Source: Enteropsectra breve (lineage: Eukaryota > Microsporidia). Taken from it: a stretch of DNA of 46,020 nt. The number at the start of each line of letters is the position of its first letter. Position 1 is the first letter of the stretch. Positions 1 to 37,898 of this stretch are shown one piece after another. The notes beneath the pieces were generated by a model. That model was not told the DNA's origin, searched no databases, and worked only from the letters and a program-made list of their open reading frames with translations. The translations under genes were made by a program, and so were the position numbers. The DNA lies in the NCBI GenBank assembly GCA_024243835.1, contig JALPMN010000632.1, positions 1-46,020 on the forward strand, written 5' to 3'.

Positions 1-33
1 CATTAAATAATACGTTAGAAACGAATGTTAACA
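1..33 (+). repeat. 3' end of the 5' LTR
   Basis: These 33 bases repeat exactly at 3639-3671. The match breaks at base 34, where the element interior starts with TGG. The final A of the LTR is also the first base of the ATG at 33, so the LTR/interior boundary falls inside that codon. The reading frame of the Gag-Pol gene is open through the whole stretch back to base 3. Confidence 0.9.
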
Positions 34-3000
34 TGGCGACAACTACAAAATCAATAATAAGCAGCACGTTTAGCGGCACAGAAAACGAAGACATATCCAC
101 ATGGATATTAGATGCGAAGTTTATTCTGCAACTGCATGAAATGGAAGGAATTCCGGCACTAAGGCAGATATGCAGCGCATTAAGAGACGAAGCATTTGCC
201 TACGCAAGAGAATCACTATCAGCAAATCCTTATCTTCAGCCGAATGACTTGCTAAAACTCCTGGAAACAAGATTTGCGAGCGGTCTCAAGATTAAAAAAG
301 TCGCTCAAAAGTTTCTTCAAGGCTCTATTCCTGAAACAATCGACGACTACTTCATGATGATGCGCGACGCATCCTATTTGAGTCAGCATAATTATCTGTC
401 AGTCGCAGCGATTGTTGACCAGATAATTATACGTTCACCTGCAGAATTAAGAACAACACTATGGCAAGTAGCAAGCGATCTCAATAACGTCTATGAATTA
501 TCGAAAGCAGTAGAAAAGATATTACCGTTAGCATACAGTCAAGAAGGGAGCATGGCTCATGAGCAAGTAAATGCAAATAAAATGGCATTTAACAGAAATA
601 ATAATATTAATAATAACTCAGAAAAGAAATGGTGCGCGCTACACGGTAAAACGTATCACGATACAGATAGCTGTATAACAATACAAACTTTGAGGAAAAG
701 GCAGAGCGAAAAAAAAGCTATGAAATCGCAATTCAAGAAAGAATTTATTAAAGACGATTCAAACTATTCATTTACCTCAAAGTGTTTTAATAGTGAATCT
801 AAGTGTAACAACCCATTCGTGACTAAAGCAATTGTACAAAAAAGAATTTTTGATTGCATCCTTGATACGGGCGCCGACACATCTTTCATTCCAAGACACT
901 GTCTCCTAAATAATATTAGCATTATCCCAACGAATACTCAAGCACTAGCAGCTAACGGATCCAAAATAAAAATCATAGGGAAAGTCAGAAACCTCTCAAT
1001 CACAGTAAATAACACGGATATACAATTAACCACAGCACTAATTACAGACGACTCATTAAGTACAATATTAATCGGGGCTGATGCGTTAACTAGACACAAT
1101 GAAATACTTACCAACATATTAGCTCAAGAATCAACTCCCTGCATTGCTAATTCGGTACAGTACCCCATCCAAAACATATTAACTAAATTCGCTCCTCTCT
1201 TCTCAGATAATATTTCTCAATCAACATTATGCACAGTAATAAAACACAATATTAAAACTACAGACGAGCAAATAATTAGACAATCAAACGGGAGATTGCC
1301 AGTTTTTTGGGAAGAAGAAATACAGAAAGAAGTATCTAAACTATTGAAAAATGGAATAATTCGATATTCAGATAGCGGTTGGGCGTCAAGAATCAATCCG
1401 GTTAAAAAGAAAGACGGAAGCCTAAGACTTTGTATCGATTACAGAGCACTTAATAAGGTCACGATAAAAGACGCATATCCGATACCACGCATAGATGAAA
1501 TCGTTACAAAGCTCAGGAATGCAACTATATTCACAGTTTTAGATGCCACATCTGGCTATCACCAGATTGAGCTTTCCGAGGAGGACAAGTGCAAAACGGC
1601 ATTCTCGTTTAAAGGCATGCATTATGAGTTTAACCGAATGCCGTTTGGGCTATCAAATGCCCCAGCTACATTCCAGAGGGCAATGAACATCATCTTCAAT
1701 AACAAATTCAGCGAATTTGTAGCACCGTACTTCGATGATATAATTATCTTTTCAGAAAACATGAAGCAACATCAAAACCATCTGGAACAAGTATTTCACC
1801 GACTAAAAACATCAGGAATATATCTAAACAACAAGAAATGCAAATTCTTCAAATCCGAAGTTAAAATTTTAGGAAACATCATTTCAAAAGGAGAGATAAG
1901 GCCTGATCCAGAAAAAATCACGGCCATCAAGAATTACCCTCTTCCAAAAGACATAAGCGAATTAAGATCTTTCCTGGGTATAATAAATTACTGTAGGGAA
2001 TATGTTACCAAATTCGCAGATCACACTGCGGACCTATATGCACTTTTAAAAAACGAGTCGAAGAAAAGTAAAAAGACCATCGAATGGAACGAAAACCTAC
2101 GAGAAAGATTTAACACAGTGAAGCAAATAATAACACAAACAACTAAGCTTTCCCAGCCAGACTTCAACAAAGTTTTTATATTAACGACCGATGCATCAGA
2201 CAAAGCAATCGGCGCCATACTGGCTCAGAAAGATCATCACGGAAAAGAAAGAGTAATTAGCACATTTAGTAAAATCTTAGATAGCACACAGAAAAATTAT
2301 GGTATCACCGATAGAGAATTACTTGCGGTCGTGAAATCGATTGAGCACTATAGACACTTTTTAATAGGAAAGGAATTTATTCTTAGAACCGATCACAAAT
2401 GCCTAATTTATATGAATGAATCAAAAGACCAAACATCACGCTTAATGCGCTGGTCAATGAAACTGGCAGAATACCAATTTATAGTTGAATATATTAAAGG
2501 AGAAGACAACGCCGCGGACGGGTTCAGCAGAGCCTATGCAATACAAATGGATAGAGATCCAAAAATAAAGAATATAACCAATAGCGGCATGATAAAAGAA
2601 ATACTCAAGGAATACCATCTAACATCTGGCCACGGCTCAGCAACAGCAATGAAGTATCTCATAAAAAAGAAATACTACTGGAAAAGCATGTTTTCTGATA
2701 TCGATAAATATACACAATCGTGCGAAATTTGCCAGCAAAGTGGAAAAGCCCGAATTAATACTGAGAATAGAATCATAGAATCAAAATTTCCTAACCAAAT
2801 TTGGGAGATAGATATAATCGGAAGACTTCCAGAAACGGGCAAACATAATAAATTCATTTTAGTGATAATTGATCACTACACAAAGTGGGCTGAAACATTC
2901 GCAATAAACGCTAAAACGAGCAAAATGGTTACCTCTAAATTAACTACTGCAATAAATAAGCACGGGACACCATTTAGAATTATTTCAGATCAAGGATGTG

Positions 3001-3575
3001 AATTTAACAGCAATGAAGTCTCTAGATTTGCTGAAACTCACAACATAAAATGGGAATTCGCATCGCCGGCTCATCACACGACTATTGGAGCAGTAGAGAG
3101 AGCAATACAAACCATTTTTAATAAAATTAGAAAGTTAAATGATTTTAAAGCGAAAAATTGGGATCAAAAGTTAGAACAAGCGACATTAGCATACAATATT
3201 TCATATCAAAGAGCAATTGGTACATCGCCATTTATCTTAAACCACTTAACAGAGCCAAACCTCGAAATAGATAAAAAGACAACGACCTCAGAATTTTCAT
3301 ATAACAAAACACAAATTCTAAATAAGCGGGATCTTCACTGGAAAAAGTATGCGTCAAACAATATTCCTAAGGGCAAGATCAAAATCGATGACCAATTGAG
3401 AATAGGCGACGAAGTTCTTATATATCGAGATGTTTTAGGCGATGAATTTAAAAATAGATGGTCAACAGGATATACGATTAAAGAAATCATAATACCAGAC
3501 GCCTTCATAGTCTCTAAAAATAACAAAAACTACAGAGTAAACAAGAAACACATAAAGTTACATGTCAAAATCTAG
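33..3575 (+). CDS. Gag-Pol polyprotein of a Ty3/gypsy retrotransposon
   Basis: A single 1180-residue frame with no frameshift between Gag and Pol. Gag has no classical CCHC knuckle but a CX2HX4HX4C cluster near residues 201-215. The aspartic protease has DTGAD at 278-282. Reverse transcriptase has YFDD at 566-569. RNase H has TTDAS with its Asp near 720. Integrase has an H862-X4-H867...C897-X2-C900 zinc site and the catalytic triad D927, D986, E1022 with DX35E spacing; a short basic module closes the protein. All catalytic residues are present, so the copy looks competent. The ATG at 33 is probably internal: the frame stays open to the window edge, and the identical 3' LTR shows an in-frame ATG 42 bases further upstream, preceded by AAATTT and CCC signals. 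The true start is therefore likely in the 5' LTR, outside the window. Confidence 0.93.
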   Translation: MATTTKSIISSTFSGTENEDISTWILDAKFILQLHEMEGIPALRQICSALRDEAFAYARESLSANPYLQPNDLLKLLETRFASGLKIKKVAQKFLQGSIPETIDDYFMMMRDASYLSQHNYLSVAAIVDQIIIRSPAELRTTLWQVASDLNNVYELSKAVEKILPLAYSQEGSMAHEQVNANKMAFNRNNNINNNSEKKWCALHGKTYHDTDSCITIQTLRKRQSEKKAMKSQFKKEFIKDDSNYSFTSKCFNSESKCNNPFVTKAIVQKRIFDCILDTGADTSFIPRHCLLNNISIIPTNTQALAANGSKIKIIGKVRNLSITVNNTDIQLTTALITDDSLSTILIGADALTRHNEILTNILAQESTPCIANSVQYPIQNILTKFAPLFSDNISQSTLCTVIKHNIKTTDEQIIRQSNGRLPVFWEEEIQKEVSKLLKNGIIRYSDSGWASRINPVKKKDGSLRLCIDYRALNKVTIKDAYPIPRIDEIVTKLRNATIFTVLDATSGYHQIELSEEDKCKTAFSFKGMHYEFNRMPFGLSNAPATFQRAMNIIFNNKFSEFVAPYFDDIIIFSENMKQHQNHLEQVFHRLKTSGIYLNNKKCKFFKSEVKILGNIISKGEIRPDPEKITAIKNYPLPKDISELRSFLGIINYCREYVTKFADHTADLYALLKNESKKSKKTIEWNENLRERFNTVKQIITQTTKLSQPDFNKVFILTTDASDKAIGAILAQKDHHGKERVISTFSKILDSTQKNYGITDRELLAVVKSIEHYRHFLIGKEFILRTDHKCLIYMNESKDQTSRLMRWSMKLAEYQFIVEYIKGEDNAADGFSRAYAIQMDRDPKIKNITNSGMIKEILKEYHLTSGHGSATAMKYLIKKKYYWKSMFSDIDKYTQSCEICQQSGKARINTENRIIESKFPNQIWEIDIIGRLPETGKHNKFILVIIDHYTKWAETFAINAKTSKMVTSKLTTAINKHGTPFRIISDQGCEFNSNEVSRFAETHNIKWEFASPAHHTTIGAVERAIQTIFNKIRKLNDFKAKNWDQKLEQATLAYNISYQRAIGTSPFILNHLTEPNLEIDKKTTTSEFSYNKTQILNKRDLHWKKYASNNIPKGKIKIDDQLRIGDEVLIYRDVLGDEFKNRWSTGYTIKEIIIPDAFIVSKNNKNYRVNKKHIKLHVKI
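34..46 (+). promoter_or_regulatory. Primer-binding site for reverse transcription
   Basis: TGGCGACAAC follows the LTR directly. TGG complements the CCA tail of a tRNA, and the next bases GCGAC would pair with a tRNA having G73 and a GUC acceptor end, as in tRNA-Asn of yeast. The tRNA identity is inference; the position and TGG are seen. The site overlaps coding sequence. Confidence 0.65.
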
Positions 3576-3576
3576 C

Positions 3577-3584
3577 GCGAGGGA
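3577..3584 (+). promoter_or_regulatory. Polypurine tract before the 3' LTR
   Basis: A short purine run with one C (gcgaggga) lies immediately 5' of the 3' LTR and one base after the Gag-Pol stop at 3573-3575. Its position fits the plus-strand primer; it is short and interrupted, so the exact extent is uncertain. Confidence 0.5.
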
Positions 3585-3671
3585 TGTCGTTATGATACAA
3601 CTTAAAAGTTTTTACAAATTTTTAGCCCATGAATTCTTCATTAAATAATACGTTAGAAACGAATGTTAACA
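3585..3671 (+). repeat. 3' LTR, about 87 bp
   Basis: It starts TGTCGTTATG and ends GTTAACA, the usual TG...CA form; the last 33 bases recur at 1-33. At about 87 bp it is extremely short for an LTR. It contains an AAATTT stretch at 3616-3621, a CCC at 3626-3628 and an ATG at 3629, the host gene start signature. The ATG lies exactly 14 codons upstream of, and in frame with, the ATG at the LTR end. The LTR thus carries promoter, transcription start region and translation start in one compact unit. Confidence 0.8.
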
Positions 3672-5460: not shown

Positions 5461-6846
5461 TTAAACGGTTTGCTTCTGCTGTTCCCACTCCTTGGGCCTG
5501 CCCATCGTGTACATCGGAAAATCGTATGAAAGATACTCTGAATTAGTGGCGAGGATATTGAGGAACTCCTGGTTATCCCAGTCCTCAATATCGTAGTACT
5601 CTTTTCCATCAAAGAGGAAGAACTCAAATGTGGACAGGTTCTTAAATATCACTGTTAGATATCCATCATAGTGCTCTGTGGGCCTGAGAAGAATAGATTT
5701 TAATATCAAAACCTTATTTTTAGAATTCATAAGAATCTTCATGGGAGGATCGCTGACTGTTCCAATCTCTTCAGAGAACACGTATCTGAACACAACAGCA
5801 CTTCCAACATCAAAGGTATCAAGTGTAGAGGTGCATCCAGCACCACTCTTCTGGCACTGCATGCAGATGTCTGTCCCATCTGGATTTATGTCCGAATCCC
5901 TGGACTGCACGCTTCTCCAGAGATCACTGACAGGCGTTCCCTTGTTAAATGAAATAATCACTGGATGCGCTTCGTCTGCATCCACACGATGCTGCCTCAC
6001 AGTCGTGTTTCCGTTCGTCGTGCATCTAGAGGTCCAGTTGCAGCTCAGATCAAACTGTTCTTTTGCTATTTCATTTAGAGTTCGTGTTGCATTGAAAATG
6101 CCATCTGCAAGGCGCTCTACAAGGCAGAGATTGTCTTGATGGGTGCTTTCAAAGAAAACGAAATTGTACAGCAAAGTGAAATAATAACGCGCATCTTCTG
6201 ACATCTCGTTGAAGAGGCCTCTCTTCACCAGCTCTGTGAAGAGAGTTGAGAAGACTGCATCCTGGTCAGTATCTTCATATGCTGGATTACTAGGCTCTAG
6301 CATCACATCTATCTGTTCAAGGGATAAAAACATCTCTATGAGCTGGTGGAAGAACGCTACATTCTGCTTGCTGTAGTATGCACAATTCTCTTTCAAATAA
6401 GCACTGCTGTCTTCTTCTGTTTCTCTGCTTTTATTTAGCATTTGGAATGCTGATGCCAAAGAGCATTTTATTGCCCTGGGAATTACAACATAATCAGATG
6501 TTTGTCCAATTAGTGGGTAGAAAGTGTTAAGATTCTGCATATAATAGACAGTGTGGCCTGGATCTACGTATTGCTGTTCGTACGGATCAGTAGGTGCTTC
6601 TGTAAGCGGTACTTCAGGCACGGGGATACAGCATGGAGTATTTAGTGTTTTACTGTCAAACGAAATTCCGTTCGGCAATGAAGTAGCTGAATTTGAGCCA
6701 CTAGCGTTTAAATTTTCAGTGTTTAAACTACCAGTATTAGTTGGACTGTTGGATGTTGCTGCGCTATTCTTAGTCAGTATCATAAAGAGGCCAATTAGTG
6801 CTATTAGCACTCCAAGACATATTAATACGATATAAACTGCTTCCAT
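5461..6846 (-). CDS. Membrane-anchored USP-like protein, paralogue 1 (461 aa)
   Basis: First of three tandem paralogues on this strand. Residues about 4-25 form one hydrophobic segment (signal anchor), followed by a Ser/Asn/Thr-rich linker. A GHTVYYMQNL box at about 98-107 sits where a ubiquitin-specific protease has GNTCYxNS, so the catalytic Cys position is Val. Further on come AIKCSLASAFQMLNK, a conserved CNWTSRCTTNG segment, CMQC plus GAGC (possible zinc fingers) and a block with FRYVF, YDGYLTVIFKN and DGKEYYDIEDW that resembles the C-terminal USP fold but lacks the GHY histidine box. The USP relation is inference from motif order; paralogy with the two neighbours is direct. Start at 6846, preceded by CCC. 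Likely a catalytically inactive protein facing the secretory pathway or an outer surface. Confidence 0.85.
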   Translation of the reverse strand: MEAVYIVLICLGVLIALIGLFMILTKNSAATSNSPTNTGSLNTENLNASGSNSATSLPNGISFDSKTLNTPCCIPVPEVPLTEAPTDPYEQQYVDPGHTVYYMQNLNTFYPLIGQTSDYVVIPRAIKCSLASAFQMLNKSRETEEDSSAYLKENCAYYSKQNVAFFHQLIEMFLSLEQIDVMLEPSNPAYEDTDQDAVFSTLFTELVKRGLFNEMSEDARYYFTLLYNFVFFESTHQDNLCLVERLADGIFNATRTLNEIAKEQFDLSCNWTSRCTTNGNTTVRQHRVDADEAHPVIISFNKGTPVSDLWRSVQSRDSDINPDGTDICMQCQKSGAGCTSTLDTFDVGSAVVFRYVFSEEIGTVSDPPMKILMNSKNKVLILKSILLRPTEHYDGYLTVIFKNLSTFEFFLFDGKEYYDIEDWDNQEFLNILATNSEYLSYDFPMYTMGRPKEWEQQKQTV

Positions 6847-7126
6847 AGAAGGGCTTTGAAATTTTATTTAAAAGGAGATAATTTTGAAATTTTTGCCAAT
6901 AAAATGAACAGGAGAAAGATCAAATTTAATACAGCATTATAAAAAGCTGTCCTATTAAAGAAATTTTATACAAAGCTGTCCTGTAAAAAGCTATCACGTA
7001 ACCATGCAATGAAGAGCTGTACAGCAGGCATTAAAACTAAAAATTCAAACATCTTTCATAAAATGCTTTTATTCACTTTTTAATAGAGTGCAAGAGAATC
7101 TCGATGAAATTATTTTAGCGTTGAAT

Positions 7127-8533
7127 TCAATAAGTCGGGTAGTAATCTAATTCACGCCTTGGAAAATCATACACTAGAAATTCAGCTGTGGTGCAGAGAG
7201 CCTTGGAAATATCCCCTTTTGTCCAGTCCTGAATGTCATAGTAGTCTTTCCCGTCATAAATGATATATTCAAAGGTGGGCAGGTTCTTGAATATCACGAG
7301 AAGGTATCCATCATAATGCTCGGTGGGCCTGAGAAGAATCGATTTTAATACCAAAACCTTATTTTTAGAATTTAGAAGAAACTTTCTTGGAGGGTCACTA
7401 ATTTCTCCATTTTCCTCAGAAAATACGTATCTAAAAATAACTGCACCTTTCACATCAAAATTTCTAAGCACATTCGAACACCCAGCACCGCTTTCATGGC
7501 ACAGGATGCAAACGTTTGTTCCATCTGGATTCGTTTCATTATTCCCAGTTTGAGTGCATCTCCACAGATCATTAACAGGCGTTCCTTTGTTCATTGAAAA
7601 GAACAACGGAAATGCATTGGCTCTTTCAATCCTGCATTTCTCAATTGTCAATTCTCCGTTTCTCGTGCATTTTGATGTCCAATCGCAGCGAAGTACAAAA
7701 ATATTATTCCCCCAGCTATAATGCTCTTTCAAGTAGTCTTCAATGCTATTTGCAACATCCTGTACCATTTCCACGCTATTCTTAACTCTTGAGTCAATCC
7801 CGTGTTTATTCAGATGATTTTGCATGATGATGCTCAGGTCATCCTCTTCCGCTAGCTTTTCTTCCAGGGATGTTCCCTGAACGAAATAGTAGCGGGGCGG
7901 CATTCCCACCATAAAATCCATATAGTCTTCATATTCAGGTTCATCTTCATGGTCTTGCCTCACGTCTTCGATGGTTAAAAACATTTGCAAAATCATGTGT
8001 GAAAATCTTTCAAAGGGCGTTAATGAGCTTATTTCTCCCTGGGAATCTGCATGTATTTCAAAAGCGTTTTCTTGCTTTTTATTCAGCATGTTGTATGCCT
8101 CTTCTAAGCTGCACTTAATGGCTGAGGAGTACTCAATTGTCTCATTCACTTGGCGAAGCTTTGGCATCCACTCTTCGTAATTTCTAACATAGCAAGGCCT
8201 GTAGTTGGCCCCTACCAGCTGTATCAGGCCTTCCATATTTTTATTTATTAGATCTTCATCAGCAGACAAGGAGGAATTAATGTTACTAACATTGTTTCCT
8301 GATAACGAAGTATGGCACGTGACCAATTCATTATTTGCTTTTAGGTCTCTCTCTTCATGCTTTGTAGCATTGCTGCAGACTGCAGAATCGCGATTTTCAG
8401 GCTCACTGATTTTGGGTTTGTCAGTGGCTTTAGGTGAAATGATTCTTTTCTTAATGAGTCTTCTTATCACAAACACGCAAAATAACACAATCGGAATTAT
8501 TATTCCAGGTAAGGCGATTACTGCATGCTTCAC
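7127..8533 (-). CDS. Membrane-anchored USP-like protein, paralogue 2; start codon broken, possible pseudogene
   Basis: Same architecture as its neighbours: hydrophobic N-terminal anchor, AIKCSLEEAYNMLNKKQE, CDWTSKCTRNG, CILC plus GAGC, and the FRYVF...YDGYLLVIFKNLPTFEY...YYDIQDW end. The long frame is intact (468 codons) but begins without an ATG. The ATG at the expected place (8539 down to 8537) is followed at once by TAA, then GTG AAG CAT GCA. Paralogue 3 reads ATG GAA CTG AAG CAT GCA at the same place, so codon 2 has become a stop. The next in-frame ATG lies far inside and would remove the membrane anchor. The gene is either a very young pseudogene, uses the GTG at 8533, or carries a sequencing error. 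The GNTC-like box is also changed (YRPCYVRNY). Confidence 0.7.
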   Translation of the reverse strand: MKHAVIALPGIIIPIVLFCVFVIRRLIKKRIISPKATDKPKISEPENRDSAVCSNATKHEERDLKANNELVTCHTSLSGNNVSNINSSLSADEDLINKNMEGLIQLVGANYRPCYVRNYEEWMPKLRQVNETIEYSSAIKCSLEEAYNMLNKKQENAFEIHADSQGEISSLTPFERFSHMILQMFLTIEDVRQDHEDEPEYEDYMDFMVGMPPRYYFVQGTSLEEKLAEEDDLSIIMQNHLNKHGIDSRVKNSVEMVQDVANSIEDYLKEHYSWGNNIFVLRCDWTSKCTRNGELTIEKCRIERANAFPLFFSMNKGTPVNDLWRCTQTGNNETNPDGTNVCILCHESGAGCSNVLRNFDVKGAVIFRYVFSEENGEISDPPRKFLLNSKNKVLVLKSILLRPTEHYDGYLLVIFKNLPTFEYIIYDGKDYYDIQDWTKGDISKALCTTAEFLVYDFPRRELDYYPTY

Positions 8534-12118: not shown

Positions 12119-13972
12119 ATGATGGATGAGCAGAAAATGAAGTACGGCGTTACCGGAGCAGTGACCTTCAAGGAGTCAGAAAAGACAGCACTGGATCTTT
12201 CAGAGGCACTTGCCAAGTATCTTGAGGACTCGGGATTCTTCGAGTCGGAGGAATCCGCACAGCTCAGAGAGCGGGTGCTCGGCCGTCTGGATTTCATGGC
12301 GAAAAAGTTTGTGAGGGAGCTGGGCACCGATGCATCACGGGACTACGGAGGGGTCATTTTCACCTTCGGGTCGTACCGCCTGGGGGTGCACGACCGTGGC
12401 GCAGATATCGATGCGCTCTGTGTTGTTCCACGGCACGTGTATCGCAAGGATTTTTTCAACACGTTCTTTTCAGAACTGGCAGCAGACAAAAATGTCACAG
12501 ATCTTTCGAAAATTGAGGATGCGTTTGTTCCGCTCATCAAAATGAAGTTCCATGGAATTCCCATCGATCTGACATTTGCGCGCCTCAGTCTCTCGGCCGT
12601 GAAGAGCAGTGTGAATCTGCTGAACAACACGCTTCTCAAGATGATGGACGAGAAGTGCATTGTTTCTCTGAACGGGTCGCGTGTCACCGACTCGATGCTC
12701 CAGCTGGTGCCGAACACGAGCACGTTCCACCAGGTGCTCCGGGCCATCAAGTTCTGGGCGAAGCGCAGATGCGTCTACGGGGCATCGTACGGATATTTCG
12801 GGGGAGTGGCCTTCTCCATCTCTGTGGCACGCGTCTGCCAGCTCTACCCGAACTACTCGCCGTACGACACGCTCTGCAAGTATTTTGAGTTCTATGCAGC
12901 CTGGAAGTGGCCCTCTCCGATATTCCTCTGTCCCATTCTGAATTTGAACTACAATTTTAAGGTTTGGGATCCAAAGACAAATCCATCAGACAAATACCAC
13001 AAGATGCCCATCATAACACCAGCATATCCATCGATGTGTTCAACACACAACGTGTCGCAGAGCACCATGGGCGTCATTGTGAGTGAGTTCGAGCGGGGGC
13101 ACATGCTTCTGAGTGACTGTAAGTCTATTTCTTTAATTCAGAATAATGATATACCTCATAATGATATTCATAATAAAATGAAAGTAGATGATATAGATAC
13201 CAAAAATAATACAATGAAAGTAGATAATATAGATATAAATAATAATATAAAAGATATTAATAATATAATGAAAGTAGATGATATAAAAGATATAAATAAT
13301 AATATAAAAGATATTAATAATATAATGAAAGTAGATGATATAAAAGATATAAATAATATTGAGGTAGATAAGAGTTTAACTCCAGCAATCAGCTGTTTTG
13401 ATAAATTGTTTGAAATCAATGATTTTTTTAAAAACTATAAAATATTTATTCAGATCAAGGCAGTGGCTGGATCTAAGAGCGAAATGCTGAGCTGGGGCGG
13501 ATACATCGAGAGCAAAGTGAGAATAATGGGAACGAAGCTGGAGATTCTGGAGAGCATCAGCATGGCGGTGCCGTATCCCAAGGCGTACAGGACCAGTGAG
13601 AATGTATCTAGCAATAATGATAATAATGATAATGAAAATATTAATAATAATGATAAAGCCATTGATAATAAAGCCATTAATGATAAAAAGGATAATAATA
13701 AAAAGGATAGTGATGAGGAGAATGAGAATAGAAAGATGTTCAGGACAAACGAGGAAGAGAGCTGCACATGCTATTCCTTCTTTTACATCGGGATTGAGCT
13801 GCAGAAGACAAGAGACGGAAGTAAAAAACTATTTATTGATGCTCCTGTTAAAGAATTCTTGGATTTTGTAAATGCATGGGAACATAAGACAAAGGATATG
13901 AAAGTGGAAATAAGTGCTGTGAAGAGAAAGGAGGTTCAGATGGTAATAAAGAGGTGTACTTCAGAGGAATAA
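12119..13972 (+). CDS. PAP1: Poly(A) polymerase
   Basis: The product (617 aa from the ATG at 12119; a second ATG follows at 12122) adds poly(A) tails to pre-mRNA in the nucleus. The nucleotidyltransferase core has FGSYRLGVH with G84-S85, the metal-binding aspartates D96 and D98 in GADIDAL, and the third D150 in IPIDLTFA. The central domain includes GGVAFSISVARVCQLYPN and AWKWPSPIFLCPI, and the motif MPIITPAYPSMCSTHNVS is typical of eukaryotic PAPs. The C-terminal RNA-binding domain is interrupted by two asparagine-rich low-complexity inserts, at about residues 340-420 (19-residue repeats) and 497-540. The core is GC-richer than these inserts. No CCC triplet directly at the start, but CTCC repeats precede the ATG. 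Confidence 0.93.
   Translation: MMDEQKMKYGVTGAVTFKESEKTALDLSEALAKYLEDSGFFESEESAQLRERVLGRLDFMAKKFVRELGTDASRDYGGVIFTFGSYRLGVHDRGADIDALCVVPRHVYRKDFFNTFFSELAADKNVTDLSKIEDAFVPLIKMKFHGIPIDLTFARLSLSAVKSSVNLLNNTLLKMMDEKCIVSLNGSRVTDSMLQLVPNTSTFHQVLRAIKFWAKRRCVYGASYGYFGGVAFSISVARVCQLYPNYSPYDTLCKYFEFYAAWKWPSPIFLCPILNLNYNFKVWDPKTNPSDKYHKMPIITPAYPSMCSTHNVSQSTMGVIVSEFERGHMLLSDCKSISLIQNNDIPHNDIHNKMKVDDIDTKNNTMKVDNIDINNNIKDINNIMKVDDIKDINNNIKDINNIMKVDDIKDINNIEVDKSLTPAISCFDKLFEINDFFKNYKIFIQIKAVAGSKSEMLSWGGYIESKVRIMGTKLEILESISMAVPYPKAYRTSENVSSNNDNNDNENINNNDKAIDNKAINDKKDNNKKDSDEENENRKMFRTNEEESCTCYSFFYIGIELQKTRDGSKKLFIDAPVKEFLDFVNAWEHKTKDMKVEISAVKRKEVQMVIKRCTSEE
13253..13372 (+). repeat. In-frame 57-bp tandem repeat inside poly(A) polymerase
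   Basis: A block containing atgaaagtagatgatataaa recurs with a period of 57 bp (starts at 13268 and 13325), with a shorter diverged copy upstream near 13174-13230. It encodes repeated MKVDDIKDINN units. The length is a multiple of three, so copy-number change keeps the frame. Confidence 0.85.
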
Positions 13973-34964: not shown

Positions 34965-36482
34965 ATGTCTGGAGAATATAAAAGTCCATTTGATTTAAAT
35001 AAAAAGTATGGCGGCACCTCCAAAAGAGATGCGAAGCCCTATGCCACCGCAGATAAAATAGAGGAGCAAACCGCTAGCAGCACTCCAAAAAATAAAATAA
35101 ATCCGTCTGAAAAAATAACAATTGAAGATGAAAAAATAAAAGTCACAACAAACAGCCCATTTCCGCCCATAAATGATCTGAAAGAACTTAAATGCGCACG
35201 AGCACTGGGATTCAGCAAGCCAACGATTGTGCAGAAATACTCGATTCCAATTATTAAAAATGAGCAGGACATTCTTGTGCGCGCACCGACAGGAATGGGA
35301 AAGACCCTGTGCTTTCTGCTTCCAGCGATAGAAAATATCAAGTACAGCCAGACGGGTGTGCAGATATGTGTTGTTTCACCTGTAAGGGAGCTGTGCGACC
35401 AAATAAAAACCCAGGCAGAACTTGTGTGTGGCACAAAGCAGCTGTATGTAGAGGCAGTTTATGGCTCTATGAGCTCGCGCTTCCGCCCAGGAAAGACACC
35501 TGATGTTCTGATTGCAGCCCCTGGCCGCCTGAAGGATCTCCTGAACAGCGAGCGCATTTCTCTTTCCAAGTGCAAGTATTTCATACTCGATGAGGCTGAC
35601 AAGCTTCTTGACATGGGTTTTGAGCGTGATGTGCTTGAGATAAAAAGCTATGTAAATAAAAATGCAGTAGTGTGCCTTTTTTCAGCCACTTATTCTCCAA
35701 AACTAACTAACGTAATAAATCAGGTTCTTCCAGCGGACAGGATGGTAGTAGAAATTCAGAATGAGACACTTCCGTCGATAAAGCAGGAATTTATAGAGGC
35801 AGCCGACAAGAAGGAACAGCTTTTGCAGGTTCTTTCCAAAATGAGCTTTTCAGTGGCCTGGGGAGGAAAGAGCGAAAAAGTAATTGTTTTTACAGAGACA
35901 AAGAACATGAGCTCAAGAATCAGTGCATTTCTGAAGGATCACAAGTTTTCAGCGAGTGCGATCAACGGTGATCTTGATCAAATTCAGAGAAATGCAACAC
36001 TCGCCAGTTTCAGGTCCGGAGATCTTAATATTTTGGTTGCCACTTCAGTTGCTGCGCGTGGAATTGATGTCAAGGACGTAGGTCTTGTGATAAACTATGA
36101 TTTTCCGAGGGATATCAAGGAGTACATTCATAGAATCGGAAGAACAGGGAGAGAGGGGAAGGAGGGCAAGGCCCTGAGTTTTATCGATGGGGATCTGTCG
36201 TATGAGCTCAAGAAGGATCTGGAGGCGCTGCTTAAGGAGCTGGGTCTTGAGGTTCCGTCGTATCTGTTCGATCGAAAGAGGAGAAGCTCACGGGATGGGC
36301 GCAAAGGCAGGAGCGATGATTTTTCCAGGAAGGAAAAAGAAAATAATAGTATTAATCAAAATAACGGTAGTCAAAATGATGTGGAGAGATCGCTTAGTTC
36401 GCTCAGTATAAAAACAGAACTAACAGAAAATAGAAATTTAGCTGAAGAAAATCAAGATGATGATATTTTTACGGATTGGTAG
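34965..36482 (+). CDS. DEAD-box ATP-dependent RNA helicase (Ded1/Dbp2-like)
   Basis: The 505-residue protein has the complete motif set: Q motif GFSKPTIVQ (82-90), motif I APTGMGKT (107-114), Ia PVRELCDQ, GG-type APGRLKDLL, motif II DEAD (209-212), motif III SAT (240-242), motif IV VIVFTETK, motif V ARGIDV, and motif VI HRIGRTGREG (389-398). The N-terminus is a short disordered tail starting SGEYKSPFDLNKKYGG. The C-terminal tail is basic and then Asn/Ser/Asp-rich. These features make it an ATP-driven RNA unwinding protein; motif spacing is closest to the Ded1/DDX3-Dbp2 group (translation initiation or ribosome assembly), but the exact orthologue is not certain. Confidence 0.9.
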   Translation: MSGEYKSPFDLNKKYGGTSKRDAKPYATADKIEEQTASSTPKNKINPSEKITIEDEKIKVTTNSPFPPINDLKELKCARALGFSKPTIVQKYSIPIIKNEQDILVRAPTGMGKTLCFLLPAIENIKYSQTGVQICVVSPVRELCDQIKTQAELVCGTKQLYVEAVYGSMSSRFRPGKTPDVLIAAPGRLKDLLNSERISLSKCKYFILDEADKLLDMGFERDVLEIKSYVNKNAVVCLFSATYSPKLTNVINQVLPADRMVVEIQNETLPSIKQEFIEAADKKEQLLQVLSKMSFSVAWGGKSEKVIVFTETKNMSSRISAFLKDHKFSASAINGDLDQIQRNATLASFRSGDLNILVATSVAARGIDVKDVGLVINYDFPRDIKEYIHRIGRTGREGKEGKALSFIDGDLSYELKKDLEALLKELGLEVPSYLFDRKRRSSRDGRKGRSDDFSRKEKENNSINQNNGSQNDVERSLSSLSIKTELTENRNLAEENQDDDIFTDW

Positions 36483-37827: not shown

Positions 37828-37898
37828 TGGAGAATCCAGGAATCGAACCCGGATCTCATGATTGCGGATCATGCTCTTTACCATTAAGATAATTCCCC
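37828..37898 (-). tRNA. tRNA-Ala (anticodon CGC)
   Basis: All four stems form: acceptor GGGGAAT with ATTCTCC, including a G3-U70 pair, the identity mark of alanine tRNAs; D stem TCTT/AAGA with loop AATGGTA; anticodon stem CATGA/TCATG; T stem CCGGG/CCTGG with loop TTCGATT. A73 is present. The B box GGTTCGATTCC matches the RNA polymerase III consensus exactly. The anticodon loop is TCCGCAA, giving CGC at 34-36 and C instead of the near-universal U at position 33. There is no intron and no encoded CCA. Confidence 0.88.

Follow-up and report, generated by a model that had tools for sequence, protein, structure and literature searches.

Where does translation of a retrotransposon begin when its long terminal repeat (LTR) already carries an ATG in frame with Gag? 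The question is raised by the first 3,671 bases of a stretch of 46,020 nucleotides (nt) of the microsporidian Enteropsectra breve (assembly GCA_024243835.1, contig JALPMN010000632.1, positions 1 to 46,020 of the forward strand; hereafter, the window), which hold a Ty3/gypsy-type LTR retrotransposon labelled C132 in our survey of the E. breve genome. Most LTR elements have a start codon downstream of the LTR and a non-coding primer-binding site. For the window element, we predict, with a probability of about 0.85, that Gag-Pol is translated from an ATG inside the 87-bp LTR and that the downstream half of the LTR, as well as the presumed transfer RNA (tRNA) primer site, is coding. A preliminary description of the window had proposed such a start inside the 5' LTR with a coding primer site, and this proposal is supported by 13 of the 13 LTR families compared here, together with the particular cases of C60 and C150b discussed below.

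All features of the window element lie on the + strand. The window opens with the last 33 bp of the 5' LTR (1-33, corresponding to LTR positions 55-87), which are identical to 3639-3671 and form a direct repeat also present in the element C33, while the complete 87-bp 3' LTR, delimited by repeat comparison, occupies 3585-3671. The signals named in the preliminary description are in place within it: an AAATTT box (3616-3621), a CCC (3626-3628) and, directly after the latter, the LTR ATG (3629-3631), which on the strength of the sequence and the family survey is the predicted Gag start when in the 5' LTR. An ATTAAA at 3640-3645 is a possible polyadenylation, or poly(A), signal inside the LTR. 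A further ATG at the LTR edge (33-35) is made by the terminal CA of the LTR and the TGG of the primer site. As had been described, the LTR ATG is 42 nt (14 codons) upstream of this edge ATG, in frame and free of stops, so that the protein would read MNSSLNNTLETNVN, then MATTTK. The primer-binding site, TGGCGACAAC (34-43), is complementary over 10 nt to the 3' end of the host tRNA-Ser(AGA), the next best tRNA matching over 6 nt, and is read as Gag codons. The Gag-Pol frame, identified as an open reading frame with domain matches, is open from the window start through the visible LTR bases, again as described, and extends over 3-3575, with 1180 codons from the edge ATG. Its polyprotein contains reverse transcriptase, RNase H and integrase in the Ty3/gypsy order, with weak protease matches that fall just under their curated cut-offs. 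The stop codon lies 9 nt short of the 3' LTR, and the purine-rich stretch GCGAGGGA (3577-3584) before that LTR is the presumed polypurine tract, other elements being purine-rich at the equivalent place.

Because the 5' LTR of the window is cut, we put the question to the other elements of the E. breve genome (3.96 Mb in 155 contigs), the one genome from which all DNA in this survey comes. E. breve represents one of the genera of nematode-infecting microsporidia sequenced in PMC10393165. An assembly break inside the repeat probably explains the cut. C33, the only other identical copy found, starts at the same base as the window and has a different right flank, and a search of the genome with the first 47 bp of the LTR, allowing up to two mismatches, matched just the two 3' LTRs. 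Several contigs begin or end in or beside elements (base 1 of the window, base 1 of C33, and the ends of C99, C100 and C135), so that 5' LTRs are hidden by the assembly.

Both LTRs are present in nine elements: C136 (110 bp), C116 (119 bp), C129 (80 bp), C101 (84 bp), C144 (178 bp), C143 (60 bp), C88 (48 bp, or 49 bp if an ATGAA duplication sets the edge), C60 (70 bp) and C105 (68 bp). The two LTRs are identical in seven of the nine, those of C101 being 2 bases apart and those of C144 a single base. Four more families were delimited through a second copy or repeat, namely C91/C130 (113 bp), C64/C22 (65 bp), C150 (192 bp, with an approximate LTR edge and a Gag interrupted by a stop) and the window element with C33. 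LTR lengths overall are about 48-192 bp, with the edges of C88, C150, C64 and C129 uncertain by one or a few bases; C129, C101 and C143 are broken further downstream, and the many broken copies without a usable 5' end were left out of the survey. Exact 5-bp target-site duplications flank five of the nine elements with both LTRs (C116, C144, C143, C60 and C105), and C88 would be the sixth if its LTR edge were shifted by one base; none was seen for C129 or C101, and C136 sits at a contig end. Reverse transcriptase, RNase H and then integrase occur in one polyprotein in the window element, in five others and in two more. Membership in Ty1/copia was considered and rejected, as integrase comes after RNase H and not before reverse transcriptase; in Ty1/copia elements, among them Ty1 itself with its copia domain order, integrase precedes reverse transcriptase.

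In all nine elements with both LTRs, the 5' LTR contains the first in-frame Gag ATG, 19-102 nt upstream of the LTR end, and each of the 13 families has an LTR-internal ATG in the Gag frame that is open to the LTR edge. None of the 13 families has a stop in frame between its LTR ATG and the edge of the LTR, the window's own cut 5' LTR lying outside this comparison. By sequence, a putative Gag start codon inside the LTR with a primer site in the reading frame is present in all 13 families, except that no primer site was recognised in C150. The phase of the primer site varies: it is read as L-A-P-D in C60 and as G-T-R-S in C88.

At least 61 tRNA matches were found in the genome, of which 60, representing 52 distinct tRNAs, were compared with the primer sites. 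In nine of ten elements, the primer site matches a host tRNA over 9-19 nt: tRNA-Ser(AGA) over 9-11 nt in C132, C136, C116, C101 and C144, tRNA-Ser(TGA) over 10 nt in C129, and tRNA-Lys in C88 (10 nt), C60 (19 nt) and C105 (10 nt). In C88 the site starts 1 nt after the LTR, in C144 2 nt after it. When C129 (L043) is compared with C99 (L139) and C100 (L140), the LTRs are near-identical upstream of the ATG and the primer sites fit different tRNA-Ser types (TGGCGTCAAC or TGGCGACAAC); this primer change is accompanied by a different Gag residue, Ser or Thr.

The same comparison, along with C60 and C150b, bears on which ATG is used. Gag could instead begin at the edge ATG, with the LTR ATG skipped or giving rise to a minor form; the window, C136, C116, C129, C101, C143 and C91 do have an in-frame edge ATG, and in the protein records P0002 and P0003 the annotation begins there. 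We nevertheless consider such a start quite improbable. We rejected the edge ATG as a signal in itself, given that it arises automatically where an LTR ending in CA or TA joins the TGG of the primer site, as in the tRNA-Ser group, whatever its use; in the window, moreover, a host-like CCC stands before the LTR ATG and none before the edge ATG. C60 and C105 lack an edge ATG and have conserved Gag sequence upstream of the next ATG. In C60, this next in-frame ATG is codon 106, and codons 8-106 are 68% identical to those of C105, with a nonsynonymous divergence (dN) of 0.21 and a synonymous divergence (dS) that is saturated or beyond estimation; these codons are constrained, and therefore they must be translated from a point upstream of codon 106. 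The frame upstream of the C60 LTR ATG closes after three codons, being open from LTR position 43 with the ATG at 52. C150b has an out-of-frame edge ATG whose frame meets a stop after 8 codons, while the frame of the LTR ATG runs for 165. In C60 and C150b, no workable AUG is left other than that of the LTR. Upstream of the ATG, C129 and C99/C100 are identical at 35 of 36 aligned positions (with one gap), whereas their leaders agree at 26 of 39 and change in length from 14 to 13 codons, that is, by one whole codon; together with the findings on C60 and C150b, this pattern favours the LTR ATG. Since the leader is too short and its sequence variable, we make no claim of selection on its amino acids. 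Whole-codon change also argues against chance, according to which short A/T-rich repeats would often contain an in-frame ATG. For each LTR alone this has some force, the probability of an in-frame ATG in dinucleotide shuffles being 0.03-0.33 per LTR, but as an account of the whole set it is scarcely credible: an open LTR ATG is found in 13 of 13 families in the Gag frame against 4 of 26 cases in the other two frames, and the product of the shuffle probabilities is about 10^-9.8, a figure that overstates the odds because the 13 families share ancestry.

Several cases outside the 13 families agree. C40, with a leader of 14 codons, C135 and C99/C100, with 13 codons each, and C150b all show the same arrangement; C135 and C99/C100 were located through the primer site, and the LTR edge of C150b was placed by its primer site. 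The tRNA-Ser primer-site pattern occurs at 24 places in the genome, compared with 15 for the reversed control. Seven are the known elements C33, C91, C101, C116, C129, C132 and C136; among the new ones, C99, C100, C135 and C150b agree and the degenerate C74 does not; and at the remaining 12 (C4, C45, C60, C93, C109, C110, C113, C126, C131, C137, C143 and C145) no LTR was recognised by eye, the place in C109 having an in-frame CCCATG upstream. Several observations weigh against a general start inside the LTR with host-like signals. The degenerate LTR fragment C74 is without an in-frame LTR ATG; in the solo LTR C95, GTG replaces the ATG, with the frame still open; C27 has an upstream in-frame ATG, with an unverified LTR edge and a CCC 22 nt off; and C83, whose layout could not be made out, is counted on the same side. 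The primer site of C143, TGGTGGAGAG (L046, after the 5' LTR at 1940), matches none of the 52 distinct tRNAs over more than 5 nt. C116 and C64 lack a full CCC, AAATTT is found upstream of the LTR ATG in just 5 of 11 LTR families, and the window's own 5' LTR is incomplete, its first 54 bp falling beyond the window edge.

Further protein records extend the comparison; conservation outside E. breve is judged from these records and not from their DNA. Seven records with MA(S/T) near the start were checked, and five have 9-22 residues ahead of it: P0005 (Nosema granulosis), P0008 (Vairimorpha necatrix), P0013 (E. breve), P0012 (unnamed) and P0122 (mis-binned). P0002 and P0003 start at MA(S/T) itself, and P0004, P0006, P0007 and P0009 begin elsewhere. 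A second protein search added P0121-P0123, P0121 and P0123 being E. breve records identical to the translations of two other elements of this genome, and a third yielded no record beyond its own query. Viral contigs searched with the window protein and with the alignment A1 contained no relative, and a search of genome contigs with A1 gave seven loci of 30-40% identity in bacterial-titled records. The Gag-Pol relatives P0006 and P0122 are assigned to metagenome bins labelled Clostridium sp. and Aeromonas sp., where they are probably microsporidian contamination. The E. breve record P0013 has a best identity of just 46% in the genome surveyed, and P0121 comes from a 23,877-base contig, its twin in the surveyed genome lying on a contig of 10,852 bases; the surveyed genome may be incomplete or cut.

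The preliminary description had also held that AAATTT, CCC and ATG are arranged in the LTR as in host genes, and for CCC and ATG the host frames bear this out. The comparison used host frames of 250 codons or more, 24 in number after overlaps were removed from an initial 27. Of these, 15 have a CCC that ends 0-6 nt upstream of the first ATG, none has one in the control stretch from -30 to -16, and 16 have an AAATTT no more than 60 nt from the start. CCC stands 0-4 nt from an ATG in 10 of 11 LTR families, C116 being the miss, compared with a mean of 1.1 and a maximum of 4 in 2000 shuffles, and in 11 of 13 once C64 (absent) and C150 (present, at 2 nt) are added. All 11 families contain AATAAA or ATTAAA, compared with a mean of 4.1 and a maximum of 9 in 2000 shuffles. 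In Encephalitozoon cuniculi, rapid amplification of cDNA ends (RACE) found 5' untranslated regions (UTRs) of less than 7 nt, with CCC-like triplets immediately preceding the start and AAATTT-like boxes at a greater distance upstream; about half of the stop codons examined have AAUAAA nearby, and AUUAAA was seen in 25% of observed cases, signals that are not general in microsporidia (PMC2803860). The gene starts described there for E. cuniculi and other microsporidia resemble ours in CCC, AAATTT and AAUAAA/AUUAAA, with the difference that they belong to host genes, whereas here the corresponding putative signals lie inside an LTR. From the host genes of E. breve and the published RACE data of another microsporidian, we infer that the LTR may be used as a promoter, a reading of the preliminary description that the host-like CCC-ATG spacing supports.

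The copying cycle of LTR elements requires an RNA whose first base lies inside the LTR. If, as in host genes, transcription begins close to the CCC, and 5' UTRs are as short as the few nt expected of the host, the first AUG of the element RNA would also fall inside the LTR, and everything after it, including the LTR end and the primer site, would have to stay open, in frame and translated; an open frame of this kind is what all 13 families tested possess. The RNA would end in the 3' LTR past the AATAAA or ATTAAA of the same repeat, and its terminal repeat (R), spanning from the CCC to the poly(A) site, would measure about 19-120 nt, possibly about 20 nt in C88, C60 and C105. The start codon would then lie inside the LTR because the promoter does and because host 5' UTRs have few bases. 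We think it rather probable that the host rule of a CCC followed by an AUG near the first base of the RNA forced microsporidian LTR elements to code from repeat to repeat. An LTR of about 48-192 bp would then combine promoter, start codon, N-terminus of Gag and poly(A) region, and in one group the C-terminus of Pol as well, and the primer site would consist of Gag codons copied anew from a host tRNA every cycle, a change of primer altering Gag. The preliminary description had seen in the layout an adaptation to extreme gene compaction. As a general cause this has to be moderated, given that yeast Ty1 has the same layout; in the narrower form of short host 5' UTRs, a stricter cause, it may well stand, and would explain the layout better than compaction at large. 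Ty1 also suggests another origin, in which the elements would have inherited an old Ty1-like trait, or arrived at it for reasons of their own, with no relation to host 5' UTRs, as Ty1 has the layout although the 5' UTRs of its host are longer (PMC5454406). We regard this as unlikely, since the elements here are gypsy-type by domain order, the primer site of the yeast gypsy-type element Ty3 lies outside GAG (PMC4974528), and the CCC-ATG spacing copies that of the host's own genes.

Ty1 of Saccharomyces cerevisiae is nevertheless the closest known parallel in layout. Its LTR has 334 bp, its RNA and R begin at LTR position 241, its 5' UTR is 53 nt long and its primer site lies at RNA positions 95-104, where silent changes preserve GAG (PMC5454406); from these figures we calculate that the AUG is inside the LTR, about 41 nt before its end. 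In Ty1 the primer site belongs to the GAG frame, while parts of the Ty3 primer site lie at the RNA ends and not in GAG (PMC4974528). The elements described here share with Ty1 a Gag AUG inside the 5' LTR, predicted in our case to be used, and a primer site within GAG. Ty1 differs in its 334-bp LTR, 53-nt 5' UTR, initiator tRNA-Met primer and separate GAG and POL frames, our elements having gypsy order, LTRs of about 48-192 bp, tRNA-Ser or tRNA-Lys primers, mostly one frame and a host-like CCC-ATG. The Ty3/gypsy retrotransposons of Anncaliia and Nosema are likewise gypsy-type with a single Gag-Pol frame (PMC4202319), a single polyprotein being stated in PMC13174016 as well; the relevant passages of the former mention no LTR start codon, and "start codon" and "primer binding" do not occur in its main text. 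Very short LTRs are known from the plant elements FRetro64 (a candidate autonomous element; LTRs of 76 and 90 bp) and FRetro129 (85 bp), which are copia-type or non-coding and for which the relevant part of PMC3281118 mentions no LTR start codon; five families here (48, 60, 65, 68 and 70 bp) have shorter ones. A literature search by phrase for a start codon in the 5' LTR found no report, a weak negative because spellings with prime signs may escape it. LTR elements of Nosema bombycis were reportedly described in 2006, and that report may cover such LTRs. The principle, then, is known from Ty1; what is new is its presence in gypsy-type elements, in many families of one genome, with a host-like CCC-ATG, with LTRs down to about 48 bp and with coding that runs into the 3' LTR.

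The latter feature is found in five of the nine elements with both LTRs (C136, C116, C129, C101 and C144), where the Pol frame continues through the purine tract and reaches its stop 10-44 nt into the 3' LTR. In C129 and C101 this end lies downstream of a break, and C136, C116 and C144 have a single unbroken frame from LTR to LTR. In the C144 LTR, bases 1-44 serve Pol and 77-178 serve Gag, leaving 32 of 178 without a coding role. A rule of host gene expression appears to determine how an entire set of retrotransposons is laid out, and with repeats down to about 48 bp, the smallest workable LTR becomes a directly testable question. An intact 3' or solo LTR would be a ready-made gene start for a compact genome, with promoter-like signals, an ATG and 6-40 codons, and annotations that begin at the LTR edge probably miss the Gag N-terminus.

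Some observations concern the surroundings of the elements. C63 (L122, C63:6600-6900) matches C64 (L047) at 96% up to the C64 LTR start and then continues without an LTR, and both contigs carry a tRNA at the same offset; this looks like two alleles, one without the insertion, which would hence be young. Frames of 411-418 codons flank several elements (L043, at 3-1349 and 5805-7172 reversed; flanks of L048 and L049) and may form one gene family. Among host frames scanned, 6 of 10 had no Pfam match, and other genes of the window include a poly(A) polymerase (12119-13972), a DEAD-box helicase (34965-36482) and a tRNA (37828-37898).

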